This document shows, in pieces, positions 13,119-25,500 of a stretch of DNA of 64,000 nt. Both the position numbers and the translations under genes were made by a program. Position 1 is the stretch's first letter. Every line of letters starts with the position of its first letter. Location: positions 2,730,501-2,794,500 of the forward strand of contig CP113055.1 of the NCBI GenBank assembly GCA_026625625.1, written 5' to 3'. Below the pieces are notes generated by a model. The model did not search any database. It was not told the DNA's origin and was given only the letters and a program-made list of their open reading frames with translations. Source of the stretch: Blastomonas sp. SL216. GTDB taxonomy: Bacteria > Pseudomonadota > Alphaproteobacteria > Sphingomonadales > Sphingomonadaceae.

Positions 13119-16100
13119 CTACACCGTCATCGACGTGCCCCTGTAGATCCGTGCCCGATAGCGCGAATCCTGCGCGTCGGGCAGCGGTGCGCCGACCAGC
13201 AGGACGGCGCGGGCGAAGCGTTTCAGCTCTTCCTGATGCTCCACCGCGTTGCGCGGTTCTTCGGAGCGGATGCGGCGGGTGAGGTTGATCTGGTTGGTGG
13301 GCACATCGTGTACCAGCCGCTCGTTTTCCACCGCCAGCGTCGCGGTGAAGGCGTGCAGCGTCGTCTTGACGAAATTGGCGAGCGCAAAGGCCGGGCCGCT
13401 CTGGCCGAAGGGCACATCTGGCGAGACCAGCACCAGCTGGCAGCCATCATAAAGCGAGGCCTTGCGGCCGATACGGAAATGATGGGTGAGGTTTTCCTCA
13501 CACAGGTCGCGGAATTCCTCGGGTGCCAGCATCGCGCCGTCCTCGAACAACCGGTCGGGCAGGCCCGCCATCGGCGTCGAGACCACGGTGGTCGGCCGTC
13601 CGAATTCGGTCAGCGCCTGGTCCATCGCGCCTTCGATGTCCGCGCCGCACACGCGCACGGTCACCTTGTCGGCGACTTCCTGGTCCAGCATGGCGAGCAC
13701 GCCTGCGCCCCCCGCTTCGCTGCGGGTGAGCAGCACCATGCGCGCGACGCCCAGGCCGCCGATCAGATGGTTGGCGGTCTCCGCGATATAATCGGCCAGA
13801 TGCTCGCCGATCACCCAGACGATCTTGCCCTTCATCTGTTCGAGCCGTTCCTGCTTGGGGCTGCCGAACATTTCGCGCTCGGTATAGGAGCGCTCGACGC
13901 TGAGGCCGCCCGAAGGCATGAAGGTCTCGCCGCTCACCGCGCGGTCGGCGAGGTAGAAGACCGTGGCTTGCGCAACTTCGCTCTCCTTGGGCATCGCGCC
14001 CAGATGCAGCTGCGACAGCACGCCGCGCCCGACCTTGTCGGCCTCCTTGCCGATGCGTTCCTGCGGCAGGTACGGCATGTCATCGGGCGGAAGCGCCATC
14101 AGCCAGCCGGTCAGGCCCTCGTTGGTGCCGCTGCGCTCCTGCCATTCGGGATGGCCGAGCAGATAGCCCGCCGAGCGCAGCCGCGCGAGCAGGCGACCGG
14201 CGATATCGGCGGTGAGCAGATAGCGGTCCCAGGTGCAGATGCCGTCGCCCTCGCGCGCGAGCTCCAGGCAAAGCAGCCGCAAGGGATCGGGCGTCGAACG
14301 GTCATGGCTGAGATAGCCGGTATCGTTGCGCGCCAGCCGGCCGAGCACATGCGTGACCTCTGCCCCCTCGCGGATCGATTCGATCACCGCGGCATAGATG
14401 GCGTTCAGCCGCTTGTTCTCGAGGATCAGGCGCGCACGGCGCAGGAACAGTCCGGGCTTGCCGCCTGTGCCGGACAGGCGATCGCCGTCGACCGGGCCGG
14501 GGGCAATCGCGTTGACCTGGATTTCGGGGCCCAGGAAGCGCGAGAAGCTTTCCACCATCGCACGCTGTCCGGCCTTGGACACCGCATAATCGGCGCGGTT
14601 GGGATAGGCGACGGCCAGGAATTTCTCGCCGCCGAAATAGCTCGACACGTTGAGGATATAGCCCGATCCCTGGCGCTTCATGATCGGCACGACATAATGC
14701 ATCAGCAGGTAATTGCTGATCAGGTTGGCATCCAGCGTCCAGCGCCACATGTCGAGGCTCATGTCGATGACCATGTCCTCGGCGCCTGCGACCCCGGCAT
14801 TGTTGATCAGATAATCGATCCGCCCGAACTCGGCCATGGTGGCGTCCGCCGCGCGGCGCAGCGAATCGAAATCGCTGACATCGACATCGGCCATGATCTT
14901 GACCCGGCGTTCGACGCCCGAAAAGCCGACATCCTGCAGCTCGCCGACGATGCGTTCGCGCGCGGCTTCCAGCTCGCTGGCGCGGCGTGCGACCATCATC
15001 ACTTTCGCACCGGCGAGCGCGAGCAGCCGCGCCACCTGGCCGCCGATCCCGGCCGATCCGCCGGTGATCATCGCCACCTTGCCCAGATGCAGCCCGGTAA
15101 TGTTCTCGGCAAAGCCCAGCATCGCCCGGCGCGCACCCGTTTCCTCGCCGATATTGGCGGGCAGGTAGAGCGAGGTTTCGGTGATCTTCTGTTCCTTGAA
15201 GACGATGCGCGTCGCATGGCCCGCGGCAAAGCGCGTGTTCTCGTCCTCTGCATTGGTATAGCGCACGATCTGGTTGCCCCAGGCGGCGCGCTTCTGCCGG
15301 CCTTGCGCAAAATCGACGCGCGATTCATCGCGCCAGATGGTGATCAGCTGCGCGATCGCGGCGGTGAGGATGCGGCCCGCCTTGTTGCCCTTGCCATCGC
15401 TGGGTCCGGACATGAACACGAAGCGCGGGTCCTGCATCAGGTCGGTGCGTGTCTTCCAATAGCGGCGCAGCGTCCGCGCGACCGCGATCGTGCCGGTCAG
15501 CTCGACATCGATCAGCGCATCGACCTCGGCATCGGACGCCGCGACCAGGCTGTCGCCGAAATGGCCGGCGGGCTTGACCGGCAGCACGATGGCGCTGTGG
15601 ATCGCGCCATGCGCGTCCGAATAGGCGCGGATCGCCGCCTCCATGCCCTCGGGCTCGGCGCGGTTGAAGCGCATGATAGTGAGGCCTTCCTCGGCCCCTT
15701 GCGCTTTGACGCGTGCCTCGGCCTGCGCGACATCGACCTGCCGCGTCATGCCCAGCAGCACGCGCGCACCGCATGCCGCCTGGATCTTCGCCATTTCCAG
15801 CGCGTCTTCCCAAGCCTCGCCCGCCGCGATCAGCACGGTCAGGCCCGCGCCGTCGAGCGAGCGCATCGACGGGCGCGTCATATAGGTGGAGCGCGAATCC
15901 TTGCGCACCTGCATGCCGTGGGTGACGTCGATCTCGTTGCCGTTCAGCGCCGCGGATTCATCGCTGGCGAGGAACAGGCACGCATCGGCAATGTCACCGG
16001 GCACCGGCAGCGTCTTCTGCTTGGGCGCATCGCCGACCGCGCGCTCGAGCGTCATCCGGCCCATGAAATGACTGGCGGTGGTGTTCTCCGGCTCGCCCTG

Positions 16101-16808
16101 CAGCTTGTCCATCGCGGCAAACACCGTGCGAATACGCTCGCTCTCGATAGGGCCGGGAAAGACCGTGTTGACGCGGATGCCGTTCGCGCCCAGCTCCTTG
16201 GCGAGCTCCTGGCTCAGCGCGTTCAGCGCCGCCTTGGGCACGACATAGGCGGTGCGTCCATAATAGCGGGTGTGCGAGAAGATCGTCGAGATGTTCACCA
16301 CCGATGCGCCCACCGGCATGATCGGCGCAGCGGCGCGGGTGAGGTTCCAGCTGACGCCCAGCAGGTTGCGCATCGCATCGGCGACCGTTTCGGTATCGCC
16401 ATTGGCTTCCATCTCGGCGCGGGTCAGCGGCACGTTTTCCAGCGTCTGGCGGGGGCCGGCAGAGCCTGCATTGTTGACCAGCACATCGATGCGGCCGAGC
16501 GCCGCCTTGACCTGATCGATCCCGGCGCGGACCGAGTCCGGATCGGCTCCGTCGAGGATCACGGTGAAGACGCGCGCATCCTCCACCCCGGTTTCGTCGA
16601 GCAGCGCCTGCTTGGCCGCGGCCAGCCGCTCCTCGGTGCGTCCGGTCATCACCAGGGTGGCCCCTTCGGCGATGAAGCGGCGGATGATCGCGCCGCCCAG
16701 ATTGCCGGCGGCACCGGTGACCAGCGCCACCTTGCCCGCCAGCCTGCCCGTTGCCGCCTTGCCGCCCGCCGGATCGACCTTCGCGCCCTTGCCTTTGCCT
16801 GCCGTCAT
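13119..16808 (-). CDS. mcr: Malonyl-CoA reductase, bifunctional (two SDR halves)
   Basis: A 1229-residue enzyme close in length to Chloroflexus Mcr (about 1220 aa), which reduces malonyl-CoA to malonate semialdehyde and then to 3-hydroxypropionate with two NADPH. Two short-chain dehydrogenase units are visible. The first has TGAAGNLG at residues 31-38 and catalytic Tyr188/Lys192 in YVVPK; the second has TGGSAGIG at 582-589 and Tyr741/Lys745 in YAVSK. Each is followed by extra degenerate Rossmann sequence. By analogy with characterised Mcr, the N-terminal half should perform the semialdehyde step and the C-terminal half the CoA-ester step. The start is set by AGGAG eight bases upstream; the open frame runs further only as an overlap of the next gene. 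Second gene of an operon with pcs, 44 bases downstream of it. Confidence 0.93.
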   Translation of the reverse strand: MTAGKGKGAKVDPAGGKAATGRLAGKVALVTGAAGNLGGAIIRRFIAEGATLVMTGRTEERLAAAKQALLDETGVEDARVFTVILDGADPDSVRAGIDQVKAALGRIDVLVNNAGSAGPRQTLENVPLTRAEMEANGDTETVADAMRNLLGVSWNLTRAAAPIMPVGASVVNISTIFSHTRYYGRTAYVVPKAALNALSQELAKELGANGIRVNTVFPGPIESERIRTVFAAMDKLQGEPENTTASHFMGRMTLERAVGDAPKQKTLPVPGDIADACLFLASDESAALNGNEIDVTHGMQVRKDSRSTYMTRPSMRSLDGAGLTVLIAAGEAWEDALEMAKIQAACGARVLLGMTRQVDVAQAEARVKAQGAEEGLTIMRFNRAEPEGMEAAIRAYSDAHGAIHSAIVLPVKPAGHFGDSLVAASDAEVDALIDVELTGTIAVARTLRRYWKTRTDLMQDPRFVFMSGPSDGKGNKAGRILTAAIAQLITIWRDESRVDFAQGRQKRAAWGNQIVRYTNAEDENTRFAAGHATRIVFKEQKITETSLYLPANIGEETGARRAMLGFAENITGLHLGKVAMITGGSAGIGGQVARLLALAGAKVMMVARRASELEAARERIVGELQDVGFSGVERRVKIMADVDVSDFDSLRRAADATMAEFGRIDYLINNAGVAGAEDMVIDMSLDMWRWTLDANLISNYLLMHYVVPIMKRQGSGYILNVSSYFGGEKFLAVAYPNRADYAVSKAGQRAMVESFSRFLGPEIQVNAIAPGPVDGDRLSGTGGKPGLFLRRARLILENKRLNAIYAAVIESIREGAEVTHVLGRLARNDTGYLSHDRSTPDPLRLLCLELAREGDGICTWDRYLLTADIAGRLLARLRSAGYLLGHPEWQERSGTNEGLTGWLMALPPDDMPYLPQERIGKEADKVGRGVLSQLHLGAMPKESEVAQATVFYLADRAVSGETFMPSGGLSVERSYTEREMFGSPKQERLEQMKGKIVWVIGEHLADYIAETANHLIGGLGVARMVLLTRSEAGGAGVLAMLDQEVADKVTVRVCGADIEGAMDQALTEFGRPTTVVSTPMAGLPDRLFEDGAMLAPEEFRDLCEENLTHHFRIGRKASLYDGCQLVLVSPDVPFGQSGPAFALANFVKTTLHAFTATLAVENERLVHDVPTNQINLTRRIRSEEPRNAVEHQEELKRFARAVLLVGAPLPDAQDSRYRARIYRGTSMTV

Positions 16809-16852
16809 GTCTTTATCTCCTGCCTGCCCGCACCGGGGCGGCTTGTGTGCGT

Positions 16853-19800
16853 TCAATCCTGGATGCGGGCCGCTGCGCTTGCCCAATATTCGAGCAGCTC
16901 GTCGCGGCTGCGCAGGCCCAGAGCGGGCAGCGCATGGTTGACGACATAGGTCGCGCCGGTATGCCGGTTGTCCCACATCGCCTGATGCGCCTCCGGCAGG
17001 CCGTCCCAATCGACGACCAGGGGCTCGGTGACCGAGAGCAGCCCGCCTGCAATCATGTTGTTCATCACCGTCACCTCGTGTGCGTTGCACAGGTGGGTGC
17101 CGTAGATATTGGCGGTGGGCATGATGATCCGGCGCTGCCGGGTCCAGACCTGCGGCGCGTAGAAGGTGTAGCGGCGACCCGCCATCTCCTCGGCATAGAC
17201 CACGCGGCCGCCGAACGGCTTGACCAGCGAGGTCGACACGCCGAGCGAATCCTGCCCGGCGCGCTCGATCACCAGATCGGGCACCCCGCGCGGATTGCCG
17301 GGCGAGCCCAGGATCTTGCCGACCGCGGTGCCAAAGGGCTTCAACGTGTGCTGCTGATAGCGGCGCACGCCCTCCTTGAACCGCTCGATATCGGCCCGGG
17401 CATCGGGAAGCCTGGGCAGGGTCTCGGGCCATTCGAACTCACTGTCACGGCGCTTCAGCCCTTCCAGGCTGATGATGCCTTCGACCGACTCCTCCAGCCC
17501 CAGCGATTGCAGGAATTCGCGCTGCCCGTCGGTGGTGGTGACGATCACGGTGCGCGCCTTGTACAGCCGCGCCGCCTCGATCATTTCCAGACCCAGCGGA
17601 TCGGCGAGATCGCGGCTGCCCGGACCATAATAGAGCAGCACCGATTCCCCGCCGCGCAGCTGCGCGCGGGCCAGCATGTCCGATGGCGCGGCACTGCCGG
17701 TCTTGCCCATGAAGCTGAAATGATAGCCCGATGACGCCCCGTAAAAGGCGAGCGTGCCATGCTCTTCCAGCAGCTGGAAGCTGCGTGGAAAGGCGCTTTC
17801 ACCCGCGTGGCTGACGACGAAATCGGCGAGCCTGCCGCCGTTCATCCGGCGATATTCCTCCAGCAGTCCTTCGCCTTCGCGCTCCCAGGCTCTGGCCGCA
17901 TCGGGATCGTCCGGCACCGGGGTGAAGGCGGCGATGAAGCGCGGGTCCTTGCGGTTCAAGGCCCCGACCGCGCCCTGATCCTTGACGAATGCGGCACGGT
18001 CGCTGCTCGACACCAGACCCGTCGCCTTGAGCCCCGACTTGATGCTGCTCTTCAGCGCATCGAGCCCGGTCCCGGTGGCAGAGCCTTCGACGAAGATCGT
18101 CTTGCCCGGCACGATTTGCAGCGTCGTGAACAGGCACCGGGTGATCGTGCCCAGGTTGAGCACATAGCTGCCCGCCTGCTCGAGCGTCAGATCGGGCGGC
18201 ACGCGGTGCAGCTGCGGTCCCTGGACGTTGAGGAACTGCGCGTGGCTTCCGGTCTTGGTCTCATAGCCCTGGATCGCAAAGCCCGCGAACATCGGGTCGT
18301 TGCCCGCTTGGGGGGAGAGCAGGTCCGAGGTGCCCGAGTACACGACCACCATGTCGCCGACGCGCAACCGCCCTTCGGCCTTCACCTCGCTGCCCAGCGA
18401 GGCGACCAGCGCGAGCCCGCCCGATCCGGTGATCTGGACATCCTCGTCATGCCCATCAAAGGGGGAGACGGGGATGCCGGTGAGCGCCCAGATATCGTTG
18501 AAATTGACCTCGCTGGTCAGCATGTAGACCAGAGCCTCATTGGGCTCGGGCGCGACCACGGGCACGATATGCTCCCGCTCATGGCTAGCAGGTGGCCCGA
18601 AACGGGGCGCGCCGGTATCGGGATCGCGGCTGATGCCGAAGGCGAGCTGCCTGGGCGGGATCGCGGTGACGCCCGGATAGAAAGGCGCGCCGACGGGCAG
18701 CAATTGGCCCGAGGCAATCATCGCCGCCTTGTTGCCCTCATGCTCGTCGTCGATCCACACGCCGTTGCGGCGGACGGGGAGCGGCGGCGACTGCTTGTCC
18801 ATGAACTGGCGGATGCCGGTCTTGCCGCCTTCGGGATCGATGATCGCTTCGGCAAAATGCTCGCCCTCGCGCTTCAATCCGGCGGCCATGCCTTGCGTCC
18901 AGCCGGTGCGCACCGCATCGAGCGCGCGCCGCCCTGCCGGCCCACGCCCCGCCCAGTCGAGCTGTTTCAGGATGCGCTGAAGGAACGCGTCTTCCAGCAC
19001 CGAATCCAGGTCGATATGCGCCGCATTGGCCCAGCGCTTGGTCATCGCCTTGCGATCGGCAAAGGCCTTGCCCAGCGGGCTTTCCGGCCCGTGCCGCGCA
19101 AACTCGCGCACCATCGCATGCGCCATGCTCAGCACATCGTCGCTGCCATCGGCGACCTGTTCGATCGCGCCCAGATCCAGCGCTTCGGCAGCGCTGATCG
19201 CGCGCCCGCCCAGGATCAGATCGAGCGCATCGCGCAGCCCTTCGGCAGCGCGCCGTTCGGCGAGCAGGCGCGGCAGCCGCTGCGTTCCACCATAGCCGGG
19301 CAGCAACCTCAGGTTGATCTCCGGCTGGCCGAAACGCGCCATCGGCTCTGCAATGCGGTAATGGCAGGCGAGTGCGAATTCCATGCCGCCACCCAGCGCC
19401 ACGCCCTGGATCGCGGCGATGCAGGGCTTGCCCATCGTCTCGATCTTGGCAAAGGCCAGCTGCGCATTGTTGGGCAGCACGCCGGCTTCCTCGACGCTGT
19501 TCACTTCCTCGAGCATCTGGCGGATATCCGCGCCCGCGACGAACGAGGCGGTGCCTTGCCCAGTAAACACCACCGCGATCACATCATCCTTGCGCGCAAG
19601 ATGCTCGACCACGATCACCAGCTCGTCGATCGCGCGTTCGTTGAGCGCGTTGACTGGCGGGTTGGTGACGGTGACCGTCGCGACGCGCTTGCCGTCGCCC
19701 AGATCATTGTACTGGATCAGGAAATAGCGGTAGCGCTCGAACAGCGCCTGGTCCTCGGCCAGCTGCTGCTTGCGCTGCCAGGCGGCAACGGCAAGCTTGA

Positions 19801-22345
19801 GCGCATCGATGCTCTCCGGATTGCGCAGCGTCGAGGTGTCGCCGATATCGCCGCCCTCGACGATCGCGCGGACCATGCGGCGCATGTACTTGCCCGAACG
19901 CGTTTCGGGAAACTCTGCGACCTCCAGAAAATCCTGCGGCACCGCGACCGCGCCCTTTTCGGTGCGGACAAGGTCGGTCAGACGGCGGCGGTCGTCCTGG
20001 GTGAGCCTGCGTCCGGCAATCGTCGTGACAAAGGCAATCGGCGTCGCCCCCTTTTCGCGGTGCGGCGCGCCGACGACCAGCACATTGCCCACCGGCGATC
20101 CGGGATCGAGCGTCTTGTCGCGCAGGATCGCGCCTTCGATCTCTTCGGTGCCGATGCGATGGCCCGAGACGTTGATGACATCGTCCGAGCGGCCATGCAG
20201 CGAGAACGAGCCATCCTCGTGCCGGATCGCGAAATCGCCCTGGGTATAGGCCCAGGTGCCCTTCCAGCGCCCCCAATAGGTTGACGCGTAACGGGCGGCA
20301 TCCCCGCGCCAGAGCGGGTTGACGCGGATGCCGCCCGACACGGGTTCCAGCGTGAATTCGTCGGTATCACCCCAGATGGTGCGGGTGAGATAGGGATAGG
20401 GAAGCGCGATGACGATCTCGCCCTTCTCGCCGTTCTTCGCGCGCCGCCACGGCACGCCGCCGGGCTCGTCGCGCTCCAGCCCGAATTCCAGATCGGGCGC
20501 ATCAGGGTCTTCCACCCAGACATCGCCGACAATCCAGGGCAGCGGATAGGTGTGCGCATCGGGGCGAAGCGGAAAGTCGGTATTGCCGTAGAAATGCGTC
20601 CAGGCGATGCCGCCATGCTCGGTCGCCCAATAGCTGTTGATATACCAGGGCGTGACATGCTCCATCGCGAACGCCTGGACCGAGGGCGAGGTCGGCTCCG
20701 CGCAGAACGTCGCGACCTTGAGCGACGACATGTCGTAATTCTGGATGTCCTTGAGGTTCTCCGGATCCTGCATCACGCTTTTCAGGAAGGTGACGCCGGC
20801 CTTGAAGATCTGCACCTTGTGCCGCTCGATGATCGAGGCGAAGCGGCCTGCATGCGGGAAGACGGGCGAGCCTTCGGTGATGATCGTCGTCACCCGGCAC
20901 AGCAAGGACCCTGCGATCAGATAGCTCTGCCCGGTGATCCAGCCCGGATCGGCGACGACGAACATGACATCGCCGGGCGCGGCATCGAAGGCCACCGGCA
21001 TGGTCGCGGCGACACCGGCGCAATAGCCGCCATGCACATGCACGACGCCCTTGGGCTTTCCGGTCGAACCCGAAGTATAGATGATGAAATTGGGATATTC
21101 GGAATCGACTGGCAGCGGCTTCGACACGGCCCAGATCGCAGCCACGAAATCCGCATCGGGCAGCGCGAGCAGCGCGGCCTCGTCGGCGACATCCAGCCCG
21201 GACGCGCGCGCGGCATCCAGGATCGCGGCGCTCGCCTGGCCGGTAAGGTCATGGCTCCAATGGTCGCGGCCTGCATTCCATACCAGGTCGGGCTGCGCGG
21301 TGTGGCGCACCACGACCACCGCCTCGACACGCGGCGGAGAATCGACCAGCGCAGAGGCAATCGCCATGCGCAGGTTCGCGGCCTGGGCGGCGTTGAGGGC
21401 CGAGCCCTGCGCCAGATCGTCGAGCGCGCGACCGACACCGCGCATCACGTCCGATCGCTCGACCGTCACCTCGCCATCGAGCAATTCGGTGACCGCCCCG
21501 GTGATCGCATCGCGCACCCTGGCGTCCGCTGCGTTGGCGGGATCATCGAGCGCGCCTGCCAGCCGCTCCATCGCCGTGCCGACGCCGATGAAATTGTCGA
21601 GCGCAGGATCGGTATAGCTCGTCTTGAACGGCACCATCTGCGCGTTGCGATAGCTGCCATCGGCGGTGATCACGATCCGCGCACCGGCATCGGCAATGCG
21701 GTCGGACAGGGTCTTGTCGCTGAACCCGCCGAATACCGGCGTATAGATGATGCCGGCGCGCTTGGCGCCTTCGGTCCAGTAGATCTGCGCCGGGATCGAC
21801 GGCATGTTGAGCGCGATGCGATCGCCGGCCTTGAGCCCCAGCGCTGTCAGTGCCAGCGAGCATTTCGCCGCTTCCAGCATCAGCGCCTTGCGGCTGACCG
21901 GATAGCAATCGACCGGGCCGCCGCGGCCGTTGTCGCTGGACATGTTCCAGCGGTCGCCCTCGAAGATCAGCGCGGTCTCGGCGCCATGGCCTGCGACCAC
22001 ATGCCGGTCGACCTCGTTGAAGCCGCTATTGGTATAGGCACCCTCGAACCAGCGCCAGTTGGGCGGATCATCGGCATTGAGCCCGCGTGCCCAGGGCATA
22101 TAGTCCTGCGCCAGATCAAGGCTGCGCGGTGCGCCGGTGGCGGCATCCCAGCCGGTCCAGCCGCCGGCATCTCGATCGTAAAAGCCCCAGGCCTGATGCT
22201 CGGGCAGATACCAGCAGATGGCGCTGCGCGCCTGATCGCCATGAAAGGCGCCGGGATCGGCGATGCAGGCATTGCGCATGGCGGTCCAGCTGGCCGAATC
22301 GGTCAGCGGGTTGGCGCGCGGCGGAACAGCGGGGGACGCCACCAT
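16853..22345 (-). CDS. pcs: Propionyl-CoA synthase, trifunctional fusion
   Basis: An 1830-residue fusion that converts 3-hydroxypropionate to propionyl-CoA using ATP, CoA and NADPH while keeping acrylyl-CoA inside. Domain order fits known Pcs (Chloroflexus, Erythrobacter). The acyl-CoA synthetase half (about 1-860) has YTSGSTGKPKG at 423-433 and the catalytic-lysine segment TRSGKYMRR with Lys819. The enoyl-CoA hydratase (about 870-1180) has FVAGADIRQM and VALGGGMEFALACHYR near 982-997. The enoyl reductase (about 1190-1830) is an MDR/Ccr-like domain with GSATGTGLDA near 1420. The ATG at 22345 has only a weak ribosome site; no better in-frame start is seen. It is first in the operon with mcr and has no adjacent regulator. 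Confidence 0.95.
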   Translation of the reverse strand: MVASPAVPPRANPLTDSASWTAMRNACIADPGAFHGDQARSAICWYLPEHQAWGFYDRDAGGWTGWDAATGAPRSLDLAQDYMPWARGLNADDPPNWRWFEGAYTNSGFNEVDRHVVAGHGAETALIFEGDRWNMSSDNGRGGPVDCYPVSRKALMLEAAKCSLALTALGLKAGDRIALNMPSIPAQIYWTEGAKRAGIIYTPVFGGFSDKTLSDRIADAGARIVITADGSYRNAQMVPFKTSYTDPALDNFIGVGTAMERLAGALDDPANAADARVRDAITGAVTELLDGEVTVERSDVMRGVGRALDDLAQGSALNAAQAANLRMAIASALVDSPPRVEAVVVVRHTAQPDLVWNAGRDHWSHDLTGQASAAILDAARASGLDVADEAALLALPDADFVAAIWAVSKPLPVDSEYPNFIIYTSGSTGKPKGVVHVHGGYCAGVAATMPVAFDAAPGDVMFVVADPGWITGQSYLIAGSLLCRVTTIITEGSPVFPHAGRFASIIERHKVQIFKAGVTFLKSVMQDPENLKDIQNYDMSSLKVATFCAEPTSPSVQAFAMEHVTPWYINSYWATEHGGIAWTHFYGNTDFPLRPDAHTYPLPWIVGDVWVEDPDAPDLEFGLERDEPGGVPWRRAKNGEKGEIVIALPYPYLTRTIWGDTDEFTLEPVSGGIRVNPLWRGDAARYASTYWGRWKGTWAYTQGDFAIRHEDGSFSLHGRSDDVINVSGHRIGTEEIEGAILRDKTLDPGSPVGNVLVVGAPHREKGATPIAFVTTIAGRRLTQDDRRRLTDLVRTEKGAVAVPQDFLEVAEFPETRSGKYMRRMVRAIVEGGDIGDTSTLRNPESIDALKLAVAAWQRKQQLAEDQALFERYRYFLIQYNDLGDGKRVATVTVTNPPVNALNERAIDELVIVVEHLARKDDVIAVVFTGQGTASFVAGADIRQMLEEVNSVEEAGVLPNNAQLAFAKIETMGKPCIAAIQGVALGGGMEFALACHYRIAEPMARFGQPEINLRLLPGYGGTQRLPRLLAERRAAEGLRDALDLILGGRAISAAEALDLGAIEQVADGSDDVLSMAHAMVREFARHGPESPLGKAFADRKAMTKRWANAAHIDLDSVLEDAFLQRILKQLDWAGRGPAGRRALDAVRTGWTQGMAAGLKREGEHFAEAIIDPEGGKTGIRQFMDKQSPPLPVRRNGVWIDDEHEGNKAAMIASGQLLPVGAPFYPGVTAIPPRQLAFGISRDPDTGAPRFGPPASHEREHIVPVVAPEPNEALVYMLTSEVNFNDIWALTGIPVSPFDGHDEDVQITGSGGLALVASLGSEVKAEGRLRVGDMVVVYSGTSDLLSPQAGNDPMFAGFAIQGYETKTGSHAQFLNVQGPQLHRVPPDLTLEQAGSYVLNLGTITRCLFTTLQIVPGKTIFVEGSATGTGLDALKSSIKSGLKATGLVSSSDRAAFVKDQGAVGALNRKDPRFIAAFTPVPDDPDAARAWEREGEGLLEEYRRMNGGRLADFVVSHAGESAFPRSFQLLEEHGTLAFYGASSGYHFSFMGKTGSAAPSDMLARAQLRGGESVLLYYGPGSRDLADPLGLEMIEAARLYKARTVIVTTTDGQREFLQSLGLEESVEGIISLEGLKRRDSEFEWPETLPRLPDARADIERFKEGVRRYQQHTLKPFGTAVGKILGSPGNPRGVPDLVIERAGQDSLGVSTSLVKPFGGRVVYAEEMAGRRYTFYAPQVWTRQRRIIMPTANIYGTHLCNAHEVTVMNNMIAGGLLSVTEPLVVDWDGLPEAHQAMWDNRHTGATYVVNHALPALGLRSRDELLEYWASAAARIQD

Positions 22346-22470
22346 CTCGGGGGCAGTCAGAGGACGGGCCCGAGAATTCGGGCGTGAAGGGGGACCGACA
22401 TGAGTTCGCAGCTCTCCTGCCGCTCCGGCCGATTACGATTCCCAAATCGCAAAGGCCGGTTACAGCGAAC

Positions 22471-22510
22471 GAAACAAATGTCTCCCGCCCCGCAGATAAC
22501 ACATTGTTTC
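22471..22510. promoter_or_regulatory. Inverted repeat upstream of pcs
   Basis: GAAACAAATGT (22471-22481) and ACATTGTTTC (22501-22510) are inverted copies of one motif 19 bases apart, each flanked outside by CGAAC or AACGAACG. They lie 126-165 bases before the pcs start and 34 bases upstream of the start-distal end of the beta-lactamase gene. A dimeric regulator site for the pcs-mcr promoter is possible but unproven. Confidence 0.3.
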
Positions 22511-22543
22511 AACGAACGGTAGGGTTGTTCGCGCCCCGCCCGC

Positions 22544-23626
22544 TCAGCGCTGGTGCCAGCGCCCCACCGCGCGCGACACCGCCTGCATCAGCTGCATCCG
22601 CGCCGGGATGCCGGCCGTGGTCTCGGCCAGCATGACCGCTACGGCATAGCGGGTTCCATCGGGCGCGGTCATGATGCCGACATCGTTGTAGCCGGTCGAA
22701 ACCGGGGGCAGATCCTGGCCGGTTCCGGTCTTGTGGAGGAACTGCCAGCCCATAGGAACACCCGCTTTCAGCCGGTTGGGGCCGCTGCGCGTGCGCCCAA
22801 GCGTGTCGAGCATCAGCCGGGTGGAGGCCTGGCTGAGCAGTTCGCCGCGCGCCAGCCGCGCCAGCGCATCGACAATCCCCTCAGGACTCGCCCCGTCGAT
22901 CGGGTCGGCGACATAGGCCGAGAGCAGGTTGCGGCGCCTGTCGAGCGGCACCCGGTCGCGCGCCGCCTGAAAGGCGCGCCCGGCCGAGAGTTCCTGCCGC
23001 CACTCGACCCCTGCAATGCTGCTCTGGAGCAGGCGCTCGCCCGGGCCGAAGCGGATTTGCGACAGGCCCTTGCGCCGCAGGAAATCGGTCACGGCCGCAG
23101 GACCTCCAGCGGTCCGCAGCAACGCGTCATTGGCGCTGTTGTCGCTGGCGGTCAGCGCCTCGTTGATCAGCGAGCGCACGGTTTCACGCACGACGCCCTC
23201 GCGCGACACCCGCGCGGCAAGCGGCTGGTGGAACAGGGTCAGGTCATTGGCGGTGATCGTCACCTCCTGGTCGAGCGAGACCTCGCCGCGATCGACCTTT
23301 TCCAGCACGGTCATGGTCACCCACAGCTTGGAAACGCTCTGTTGCGGGAACAGCTCTCCGCCGCGCTGGCCGACCACCCAATCGCCATCAATGCGGCGCA
23401 CCGCAATGCCGGTCTTGCCGGGAAAGCTGCGCCACAGCGCCTGCAGTTCGTCGCGCAGCCCTTGAGGAACCTCATTGGCGGCGCGCGGCGCCAGCGGCGG
23501 CGGCACCGGCTGGACGCGCGCGGGCGGCGGCGGCGCAGGACGCGGCTGCGCGACCTGTTTCGGCGTCGACACACAGGCCGAGAGCGCGGCAGTGGCAAGG
23601 ATCAGGACCAGCGGGCGGGCGACCAT
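22544..23626 (-). CDS. Class A beta-lactamase-type serine hydrolase, lipoprotein
   Basis: A 360-residue protein with a lipoprotein signal (MVARPLVLILATAALSAC, lipobox LSAC), then a Pro-rich linker (about 25-50), then a class A beta-lactamase fold. Ser97-Val-Ser-Lys100 is the nucleophile motif, Ser161-Asp-Asn the second, and Lys299-Thr-Gly the third. Exactly 36 residues after Ser161, as from Ambler 130 to 166, lies Glu197 in GERLLQ, so the deacylating Glu is kept while the usual Asn170 is Gln. The SxxK-SDN distance is a few residues longer than in classic enzymes. Hydrolysis of beta-lactams is likely but its spectrum cannot be read. Confidence 0.88.
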   Translation of the reverse strand: MVARPLVLILATAALSACVSTPKQVAQPRPAPPPPARVQPVPPPLAPRAANEVPQGLRDELQALWRSFPGKTGIAVRRIDGDWVVGQRGGELFPQQSVSKLWVTMTVLEKVDRGEVSLDQEVTITANDLTLFHQPLAARVSREGVVRETVRSLINEALTASDNSANDALLRTAGGPAAVTDFLRRKGLSQIRFGPGERLLQSSIAGVEWRQELSAGRAFQAARDRVPLDRRRNLLSAYVADPIDGASPEGIVDALARLARGELLSQASTRLMLDTLGRTRSGPNRLKAGVPMGWQFLHKTGTGQDLPPVSTGYNDVGIMTAPDGTRYAVAVMLAETTAGIPARMQLMQAVSRAVGRWHQR

Positions 23627-23783
23627 GTCGGGCTTTCTAGCGGCTTGAAGGTTGGCGACCATGCGGCACGGCAAGTGTATCCGCGCTGAAGCGGTCTTGC
23701 CACGGGTTCCGGGCCGGTGGCCGCTTTTGCGGCGAACAAGGCGCTGGGCGCGATGAGCAGTGCATTCCTGGTGGTGCGACAGT

Positions 23784-23901
23784 CTCCCCTCCCCTTGGGG
23801 AGGGGTGCCCGCAGGGTGGGGTGGGGAGGCGCCGATGGCCGCATTCTGGCCCCCACCCCGGTTCAGCAAGCTGAACCTGCCCCTCCCGCAAGCGGGAGGG
23901 G
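23784..23901. repeat. Cluster of REP-like palindromes
   Basis: The 281-base gap between the beta-lactamase gene and nadB holds no gene. It contains CCCCTCCCC-TT-GGGGAGGGG (about 23786-23805), GTTCAG-CAAG-CTGAAC (about 23861-23876) and CCCCTCCCG-CAAG-CGGGAGGGG (about 23880-23901). The last is a good hairpin with an A-run on the plus side, so it may terminate nadB transcripts. Similar GC-rich pairs recur at 31.2, 49.1 and 60.6 kb. Confidence 0.7.
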
Positions 23902-23907
23902 AAAAGG

Positions 23908-25500
23908 CTAGGGCACCAGCACCGTGTCTTCGGCGACCGGCAGTAGATCGGGATAGTCGCTGTTATAATGCAGCCCCCGGCTTTCCTTGCGCTCGAGTGC
24001 TGAGCGGACGATCAGATCGGCAACCTCGATCAGGTTGCGCAGCTCGACCAGATCGGGGGTGACGCGGAAATTGCCGTAATATTCCTCGACCTCGCTGCGG
24101 AGCAGTTCGATGCGGTGGCGCGCGCGCTCCAGCCTTTTGGTGGTGCGCACGATGCCGACATAGTCCCACATGAACCGGCGGATCTCGCGCCAGTTGTGCT
24201 GCACGATCACCTCTTCATCCGAATCGGTAACCCGGCTTTCATCCCAGGGCAGGATGGCGGGCGGCGGCCCCAGCTCGTCCCAATGTTCGATAATGTCACG
24301 CGCGGCGGCATCGCCGAAGACGAAACATTCGAGCAGGCTGTTCGACGCCAGCCGGTTCGCCCCGTGCAGGCCCGACTGGCTGACCTCGCCCGCTGCATAG
24401 AGCCCGGGAAGATCGGTGCGGCCGTTCAGGTCGATCAGCACCCCGCCGCAGGTATAATGCTGCGCGGGGACGACCGGAATCGGATCGCGCGTGATGTCGA
24501 TCCCGAGCCCCAGCAGCTTTTCATGGATCGTCGGGAAATGGCCCTTCACGAACTCGGGCGGCTGATGGCTGATGTCGAGATGGACATAGTCCAGGCCCAG
24601 TCGCTTGATCTCGTGGTCGATCGCGCGGGCGACGACATCGCGCGGCGCCAGTTCCATCCGCTCGTCGAAATCGCCCATGAAGCGATAGCCGGTCTCAGGG
24701 ATCAGCAGATGCCCGCCCTCGCCGCGCACCGCCTCGGTGATCAGGAAATTCTTGACGTTGAGGTTGAACAGGCAGGTCGGATGGAACTGCATGAATTCCA
24801 TGTTCGAGACCCGCGCGCCTGCGCGCCACGCCATCGCGATGCCGTCGCCGGTCGCCCCGCGGGGCGCGGTGGAGAACAGGTAGGTGCGCCCCGCACCGCC
24901 GCTGGCGAGCAGCGTTGCGCGCGCCGTCAGCGCCTCGACATGACCGGTGGCACGATTGAGCGCATAAGCCCCCCAGATGCGCCTGTCGCCCGAGGGCTGG
25001 GCGCGGTGCCGGTCGGCAATCAGGTCGATCGCGACCATATCGGGCAGCAGCGTGATATTGGGATTGGCCAGCGCCGCGCGTTCCAGCGCCTGCTGCACCG
25101 CCCAGCCGGTGGCATCGTCGACATGCACGATGCGCCGGTGGCTGTGCCCGCCTTCGCGCGTCAGGTGCAGGTCGTCGGCATGGTCGCCGCTGCCGCCGTT
25201 GCGGTTGAACGGCACGCCCAGGTCCACCAGATGCTGGATCGCCGCGGGCGCGTTTTCGACGACGAACTCGACCGTCTCGCGCCGGTTGAGCCCGGCACCC
25301 GCGACCATCGTGTCCTCGATATGGCTGTCGAAGGTATCGCCGTCTTCGAGCACCGCCGCGATGCCGCCCTGCGCCCAGGCGGTCGACCCGCCCGAGATAT
25401 CGCCCTTGGCGAGCACCAGCACCCGGCAATGCCGCGCGAGGCTGAGCGCTGCGGTCAACCCTGCCGCGCCCGATCCGATGATCAGGACATCATGTTGCAT
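23908..25500 (-). CDS. nadB: L-aspartate oxidase NadB
   Basis: NadB oxidises L-aspartate to iminoaspartate with FAD, the first step of de novo NAD synthesis. The 530 residues show the FAD dinucleotide motif DVLIIGSGAAGLTAAL at the N-terminus, STAWAQGGIAAV (about 43-54), the succinate dehydrogenase/fumarate reductase flavoprotein fold with the YTCGGVLIDLNGRT segment, and GLHGANRLASNSLLE. Length and motifs suit NadB rather than SdhA. Neither nadA nor nadC is adjacent. Its ATG overlaps the stop of the upstream lipoprotein gene by one base, placing it last in a three-gene operon. Confidence 0.93.
   Translation of the reverse strand: MQHDVLIIGSGAAGLTAALSLARHCRVLVLAKGDISGGSTAWAQGGIAAVLEDGDTFDSHIEDTMVAGAGLNRRETVEFVVENAPAAIQHLVDLGVPFNRNGGSGDHADDLHLTREGGHSHRRIVHVDDATGWAVQQALERAALANPNITLLPDMVAIDLIADRHRAQPSGDRRIWGAYALNRATGHVEALTARATLLASGGAGRTYLFSTAPRGATGDGIAMAWRAGARVSNMEFMQFHPTCLFNLNVKNFLITEAVRGEGGHLLIPETGYRFMGDFDERMELAPRDVVARAIDHEIKRLGLDYVHLDISHQPPEFVKGHFPTIHEKLLGLGIDITRDPIPVVPAQHYTCGGVLIDLNGRTDLPGLYAAGEVSQSGLHGANRLASNSLLECFVFGDAAARDIIEHWDELGPPPAILPWDESRVTDSDEEVIVQHNWREIRRFMWDYVGIVRTTKRLERARHRIELLRSEVEEYYGNFRVTPDLVELRNLIEVADLIVRSALERKESRGLHYNSDYPDLLPVAEDTVLVP

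Follow-up and report, generated by a model that had tools for sequence, protein, structure and literature searches.

A pcs-mcr operon in Blastomonas sp. SL216 encodes part of an open 3-hydroxypropionate segment and is co-distributed with type-II reaction-centre genes

What do propionyl-CoA synthase (Pcs) and malonyl-CoA reductase (Mcr), two enzymes of the 3-hydroxypropionate bi-cycle, do in an organism other than Chloroflexus? The question is raised by a gene pair of Blastomonas sp. SL216, located in the window analysed here (64,000 nucleotides, C1:2730501-2794500 of a genome consisting of the single contig C1 of 3.86 Mb). The physiological purpose of the pair outside Chloroflexus, which the original prediction regarded as unsettled, is still so, and the distribution of the genes described below links it to type-II reaction-centre phototrophy. 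The two long minus-strand genes on which the prediction was built were both confirmed as reading frames, with the short gap between them (Table 1).

Table 1. Features of the pcs-mcr locus (positions are those of the window).
Feature	Position	Strand	Description
pcs	16853..22345	(-)	predicted trifunctional propionyl-CoA synthase; CoA ligase, crotonase-type hydratase and reductase domains; 1830 aa; start codon uncertain
mcr	13119..16808	(-)	predicted bifunctional malonyl-CoA reductase; tandem SDR modules; 1229 aa; 44 bp after pcs
pcs-mcr gap	16809..16852	(-)	44 bp intergenic; AGGAG precedes the mcr ATG
pcs leader	22346..22530	(-)	kept in six Blastomonas-clade genomes; inverted repeat CGATT-N4-AATCG and GGGAGACATTTGTTTCGTT

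Residues 15-1825 of the 1830-residue Pcs match PDB 6eqo (3165 bits), which we take to be the Pcs of Erythrobacter sp. NAP1, and the ligase, hydratase and reductase domains are found in one chain. Among 20 family members, no Pcs position whose role we assume varies, whether in the AMP-binding loop (423-433), at K819 or at E989 and E1009, the two crotonase glutamates. Similarly, Mcr matches 8hi4 over residues 20-1229 (1192 bits), 8hjw over residues 19-1229 (1150 bits) and 6k8s over residues 551-1229 (1075 bits), and its tandem SDR architecture spans the whole chain. The near full-length matches to 6eqo, 8hi4 and 8hjw bear out the identities first proposed for both proteins. The active-site residues given for RfxMCR in the available text of PMC10470521 were transferred to the window's Mcr through its alignment to 8hi4, which is probably RfxMCR, as the agreeing residue letters bear out. 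They are all present, as T175, Y182, R185, Y188 and K192 for the first set, and as S723, Y735, R738, Y741, K745, R777, L787 and R791 for the second set, both sets being invariant in 22 family members. Thus, the catalytic motifs that had been read as intact are intact, in that every mappable active-site residue is kept. Furthermore, both genes are under purifying selection (dN/dS of 0.06-0.13 against two close relatives), the values being 0.088 for pcs and 0.057 for mcr against L082, and 0.097 for pcs and 0.134 for mcr against L077. Pcs is predicted to convert 3-hydroxypropionate into propionyl-CoA, and Mcr is predicted to reduce malonyl-CoA to 3-hydroxypropionate with NADPH. The closest Pcs relatives, in the records of Sphingomonas ursincola KR-99 and Blastomonas natatoria, are 95% identical to the window's protein, which groups with both of them in the Pcs tree.

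The gene starts required attention. The mcr open frame extends to 17432 (first start after the stop), and the ATG at 16808 agrees with the homologues. Upstream of the called pcs start, an ARPL[TS]A stretch lies in the pcs frame, suggesting that the true N-terminus of Pcs may sit further upstream. In the host, no in-frame ATG, GTG or TTG occurs from the stop located 90 nt upstream to the called ATG, and a codon-position comparison of the leader revealed no bias but carries no weight, two of its six rows (L078 and L095) being one codon out of register. A search for known RNA elements upstream of pcs returned none at the gathering score, and one chance-level match. On its upstream side, pcs adjoins the gene of a class A beta-lactamase-like protein (22544-23869, minus strand), which scores 139 bits with the Pfam Beta-lactamase2 model and 189 bits with the NCBIfam class A model, under the cut-off of 200; nadB (L-aspartate oxidase, 23908-25500) comes upstream of it.

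The original prediction held that the host, with carboxylases encoded elsewhere, could turn acetyl-CoA into succinyl-CoA, and this holds at the level of genes. First, accA and accD are present in the host genome, above their cut-offs, with accA lying away from the pcs-mcr operon. Second, a PCC-beta-type carboxyltransferase (C1:852809-854248), for which the best NCBIfam model is the methylmalonyl-CoA decarboxylase alpha subunit, under its cut-off, and a biotin-carboxylase subunit lie in the same 20 kb stretch as the methylmalonyl-CoA mutase gene (1222 bits against a cut-off of 876); they are named PccB and PccA, respectively, by this context. Hence, the whole first half of the 3-hydroxypropionate bi-cycle, i.e. 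acetyl-CoA carboxylase, Mcr, Pcs, propionyl-CoA carboxylase (PCC, by context) and methylmalonyl-CoA mutase, is encoded by the host genome and, given a biotin carrier and an epimerase, this gene set suffices to lead from acetyl-CoA to succinyl-CoA through two carboxylations. Third, pufLM occur at C1:2668482-2670146, so that its genes mark the host as a phototroph. PCC, the mutase and pufLM, for which a genome check had been advised, are therefore present (PCC by context), and the mesaconyl-CoA transferase (Mct) named in the same check is not found, the best match in the host genome reaching 84.5 bits against a cut-off of 725. Nor did the host genome reveal a close malyl-CoA lyase of the bi-cycle (Mcl), its three HpcH/HpaI proteins being only 24-34% identical to bi-cycle Mcl (the best 27-30% over about 310 aa). 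Since no Mct match rises above background and no protein comes close to Mcl, the host pathway is a linear segment, not a cycle. The claim that the window holds no other bi-cycle gene stands for the nine tblastn queries used (two Mct, Mcl, mesaconyl-CoA hydratase, Smt, AccA, PCC beta, biotin carboxylase and the mutase), none of which was found in it. Altogether, the enzymes and the segment of the first interpretation are retained, and the picture is sharpened to that of a phototrophic host with a segment devoid of Mct and of a close Mcl.

Across the host family (249 genomes), Pcs was found in 23 genomes and Mcr in the same 23, and the two genes are neighbours in 22 of them (they are on broken contigs in G231). 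The reaction-centre family PF00124, i.e. pufLM, is above cut-off in 44 of the 249 genomes (a 45th match, in G118, is below cut-off and was left out of the count). It occurs in 21 of the 23 genomes with pcs, as compared to 23 of the 226 genomes without pcs, and the two exceptions, G022 and G190, are 67% and 88% complete. The association has a Fisher p value of 2.4e-16 by genome and of 4.2e-5 by genus (8 of 9 genera with pcs against 16 of 87 others), relatedness being only partly removed. It is also visible within genera: in genus g74, pcs and puf are both present in one genome of four (G236), where about 2 Mb of a single contig separates them, and both absent from the other three; in genus g63, G134 and G231 carry both, and G063 (97% complete) has neither. 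Since pcs is absent from about half of the puf-bearing genomes (23 of 44), the tie goes from pcs to phototrophy, not the reverse. In a phylum-wide survey at E 1e-200, Pcs appeared in only two of 398 genomes, the host and G001. Four genomes of genus g6 that lack pcs (G006, G100, G162 and G211) have four PF00124 matches each, as two pufLM-like pairs at separate sites.

The same tie was observed beyond the family. Pcs was used to scan 84,980 species genomes, and the best 80 of the 401 relatives were retained, which makes the set a similarity ranking rather than a census; six of its genomes also belong to the family set (L078, L082, L105, L130, L131 and L143 are G095, G001, G072, G167, G207 and G113, respectively). 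By record title, these best 80 of 401 comprise Sphingomonadales, a few other Alphaproteobacteria, Burkholderiales and other betaproteobacterial records, gammaproteobacterial MAGs, Gemmatimonadota, Chloroflexota and Aneurinibacillus danicus, that is, three phyla and one Bacillota. PF00124 occurs in 75 of these best 80 of 401 (46/50 plus 29/30), the misses being four MAGs that have both pcs and mcr (L088, L096, L136 and L138) and A. danicus (L154), the sole isolate among them. In the same best 80 of 401, mcr directly follows pcs in 70 loci and lies elsewhere in the genome in eight of the remaining ten; no mcr match was obtained for A. danicus or for the lichen MAG L109, and PF00124 is found in 74 of the 78 genomes having both genes.

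A further partner was noticed downstream of mcr. Among the 63 testable loci, i.e. those in which the end of mcr is complete and followed by no less than 900 nt of sequence, 31 have accA on the strand of mcr and no more than 150 nt downstream of it. The record titles place all 31 in Alphaproteobacteria; the one accA copy that was scanned (L083) is above the NCBIfam AccA cut-offs. This position of accA next to mcr ties the operon to acetyl-CoA carboxylation.

From the observed gene content, integrity, constraint and co-distribution, we infer both the activity of the segment and the direction of its flux, and we propose that the open segment probably serves the light-powered carboxylation of acetyl-CoA, with CO2 being co-assimilated in the light. 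The operon would yield Pcs and Mcr, the acetyl-CoA carboxylase, propionyl-CoA carboxylase and methylmalonyl-CoA mutase being encoded elsewhere, and carbon would pass from acetyl-CoA to malonyl-CoA, 3-hydroxypropionate, propionyl-CoA, methylmalonyl-CoA and succinyl-CoA, in that order. The host would thus add CO2 to substrates that yield acetyl-CoA in the light. By textbook stoichiometry, the segment would fix two bicarbonates for each acetyl-CoA, at the expense of three NADPH and of three ATP, one of which goes to AMP, and we propose that the pair is kept almost only with a type-II reaction centre because light energy makes this costly carboxylation affordable. The co-distribution ties the segment to type-II reaction-centre phototrophy, with the proviso that co-distribution is not function, that relatedness is only partly removed and that the genome sets overlap. 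Several observations speak against this reading, among them the puf-bearing family genomes devoid of pcs, which tell that phototrophy does not need pcs, the family genome G219, which has pcs and puf but no methylmalonyl-CoA mutase match, and the four MAGs with both genes and no puf match. All 23 family genomes with pcs also have an isocitrate-lyase-family match above the Pfam cut-off, which indicates that the segment is not the sole acetate route and rules out that it replaces the glyoxylate shunt.

The co-distribution with pufLM would equally be expected if the segment mainly burned a surplus of light-derived NADPH and ATP under growth limitation, the carbon gain being incidental, and the textbook cost of three NADPH per acetyl-CoA suits such a valve; however, the presence of accA in the operon at about half of the testable loci suits a carbon route equally well or better, and we regard the valve as rather unlikely. 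Less probable again is a role in the supply or use of propionyl-CoA or 3-hydroxypropionate, whether for odd-chain acyl units, for polyhydroxyalkanoate or for the consumption of external 3-hydroxypropionate, which Pcs alone could take. In A. danicus, Pcs (L154:2225-7669) is matched over residues 10-1822 at 57% identity with neither an Mcr nor a reaction-centre match, and it may use external 3-hydroxypropionate; in addition, the family genome G219 (99% complete, with pcs, mcr and puf) has no match to methylmalonyl-CoA mutase. Yet mcr, which external 3-hydroxypropionate would not require, accompanies pcs in all 23 family genomes and in 78 of the best 80 of 401, and this role does not predict the tie to pufLM. 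In A. danicus, pcs has a uracil-DNA-glycosylase-like gene on either side.

Gene clusters for the bi-cycle do occur among the relatives of the locus. The arrangement smt-smt-mct-mcl-hydratase-pcs-mcr, in which two family-III CoA-transferases (smt), Mct, Mcl and a mesaconyl-CoA-hydratase-like gene stand directly upstream of pcs-mcr, was found in one locus (about 3.8-19.3 kb of each) in L103, L119, L134 and L152, which are Burkholderiales or betaproteobacterial records, and in L146, from Gemmatimonadota, where mcr is cut by the contig end; L106, at a contig start, has Mcl and the hydratase-like gene upstream of pcs-mcr. Mct was searched in 71 genomes with pcs (the 23 family genomes plus 48 from the set of 80), and HpcH/HpaI proteins in 43 of these. 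Only two Chloroflexota exceeded the strict Mct cut-off of 725 bits; the five cluster-bearing genomes (G636, G642, G648, G656 and G660) score 656-680 bits (656-692 with L106 added), two other Gemmatimonadota 674 and 710, a middle group of Mct-like proteins in some Sphingomonadales 290-390, and ordinary paralogues about 75-130. Although these Burkholderiales and Gemmatimonadota loci lend some colour to a complete bi-cycle with autotrophy in the host itself, such a cycle is contradicted by the searches of the host genome and is very improbable, since its best Mct match falls far below those of the cluster-bearing genomes and its HpcH/HpaI proteins are far from Mcl, whereas the Piscinibacter and Gemmatimonadota cluster copies are 79-81% identical to Chloroflexus Mcl. 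In Acetobacteraceae, a Rhodopila-labelled MAG (L122, G643:C124) combines pcs-mcr and pufLM with an Mct scoring 528 bits and an Mcl that shares 74% identity with that of Piscinibacter, which makes an alphaproteobacterial bi-cycle likely in this MAG on the basis of its genes.

Returning to the proposal of light-powered carboxylation by an open segment, we looked at regulation and linkage. The motif TGT-N12-ACA, which we take to be a PpsR-type site, is absent upstream of the host pcs, and its frequency at the loci (3 of 77) shows no enrichment over random stretches (134 of 4000), which rejects PpsR control. No regulatory motif common to all loci emerged, the top palindromes and k-mers being confined to a minority of them. 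Physical linkage to photosynthesis genes was likewise rejected: none of 67 host ORFs (at least 150 aa) from C1:2640000-2732000, around puf, was found in the pcs flanks of the 80 loci at 38% identity and 60% coverage, and in a rerun at E 1e-5 the best matches were 24-30% identical, the positive control nadB matching five Blastomonas-clade loci. With neither PpsR-type enrichment nor puf linkage, the reaction centre stands as energy source by correlation only, and the tie of pcs-mcr to light is one that we infer.

The Pcs tree (FastTree, no outgroup) comprises the window and 73 of the 80 loci, L097, L099, L119, L126, L127, L143 and L153 being omitted. Alphaproteobacteria, except Rhodopila, are separate from the rest; Chloroflexus and A. 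danicus are flagged as a long-branch join. The three rows of class Gemmatimonadia require three changes, suggesting that pcs may have been transferred between lineages, with the unrooted tree giving no polarity. We tentatively regard pcs-mcr(-accA) as a portable module that is accessory to type-II reaction-centre phototrophy in three phyla, a view that is quite possible and still doubtful. The module would occur either as an open segment (many Sphingomonadales, and Steroidobacteraceae and Nevskiaceae MAGs) or as the end of a one-locus bi-cycle (Burkholderiales and one Gemmatimonadota), and it would move independently of the photosynthesis genes.

These findings can be compared to known systems. 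Erythrobacter sp. NAP1 (L081), in which homologues had been anticipated, has the same gene order and pufLM, and its Pcs and Mcr are 76% and 67% identical to the window's; unlike the host, it has a distant Mct-like CoA-transferase of 296 bits, itself below the Mct cut-off. The accessible part of PMC10176485 presents the structure of the NAP1 Pcs, with its multienzyme compartment. Porphyrobacter sp. ULC335 is also a phototroph of the Sphingomonadales with the key 3-hydroxypropionate (3HP) enzymes, as NAP1, and the available text of PMC10674011 proposes CO2 co-assimilation, regards autotrophic growth as unlikely and reports that 3HP-bicycle genes rise by day, its main text, as far as available, not naming Pcs or Mcr; such expression data exist on the ULC335 side only. 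Chloroflexus has orthologues of both proteins (58% identity for Pcs and 49% for Mcr in C. islandicus) but, unlike the host, it has Mct and Mcl, and its mcr does not adjoin pcs (L156). The clusters of Burkholderiales and Gemmatimonadota share with the host the pcs-mcr order and, by PF00124, phototrophy, and differ from its window by the five genes directly upstream; PMC9802188, in its accessible part, describes the bi-cycle from Gemmatimonadota and from Burkholderiales for which photosynthesis is predicted, the genes for glyoxylate salvage lying together, and mentions 3HP enzymes in Alphaproteobacteria. According to the available portion of PMC11089705, the 3HP bicycle is apparently used by the aerobic anoxygenic phototrophs from Microcystis aggregates, but it was found incomplete; the main text of PMC10581226, in the part available, does not mention 3-hydroxypropionate. 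The enzymes, the NAP1 precedent, the daytime induction in Porphyrobacter and the bi-cycles of Burkholderiales and Gemmatimonadota are thus already in print. Our literature search, whose coverage left out most subscription papers, found no genome-wide test of pcs-mcr against puf, though one may exist. What is added here is the co-distribution of pcs-mcr with pufLM and the link to accA.

Aerobic anoxygenic phototrophs are generally regarded as heterotrophs that merely save carbon with light. If the proposal of light-powered carboxylation is true, two CO2 would be added per acetyl-CoA in the light, many of these organisms would be mixotrophic in a defined way, and the combination of pcs-mcr and puf would be a marker for such mixotrophy. 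The question of the role of the 3HP enzymes outside Chloroflexus would then gain a direct genetic test in culturable lineages.
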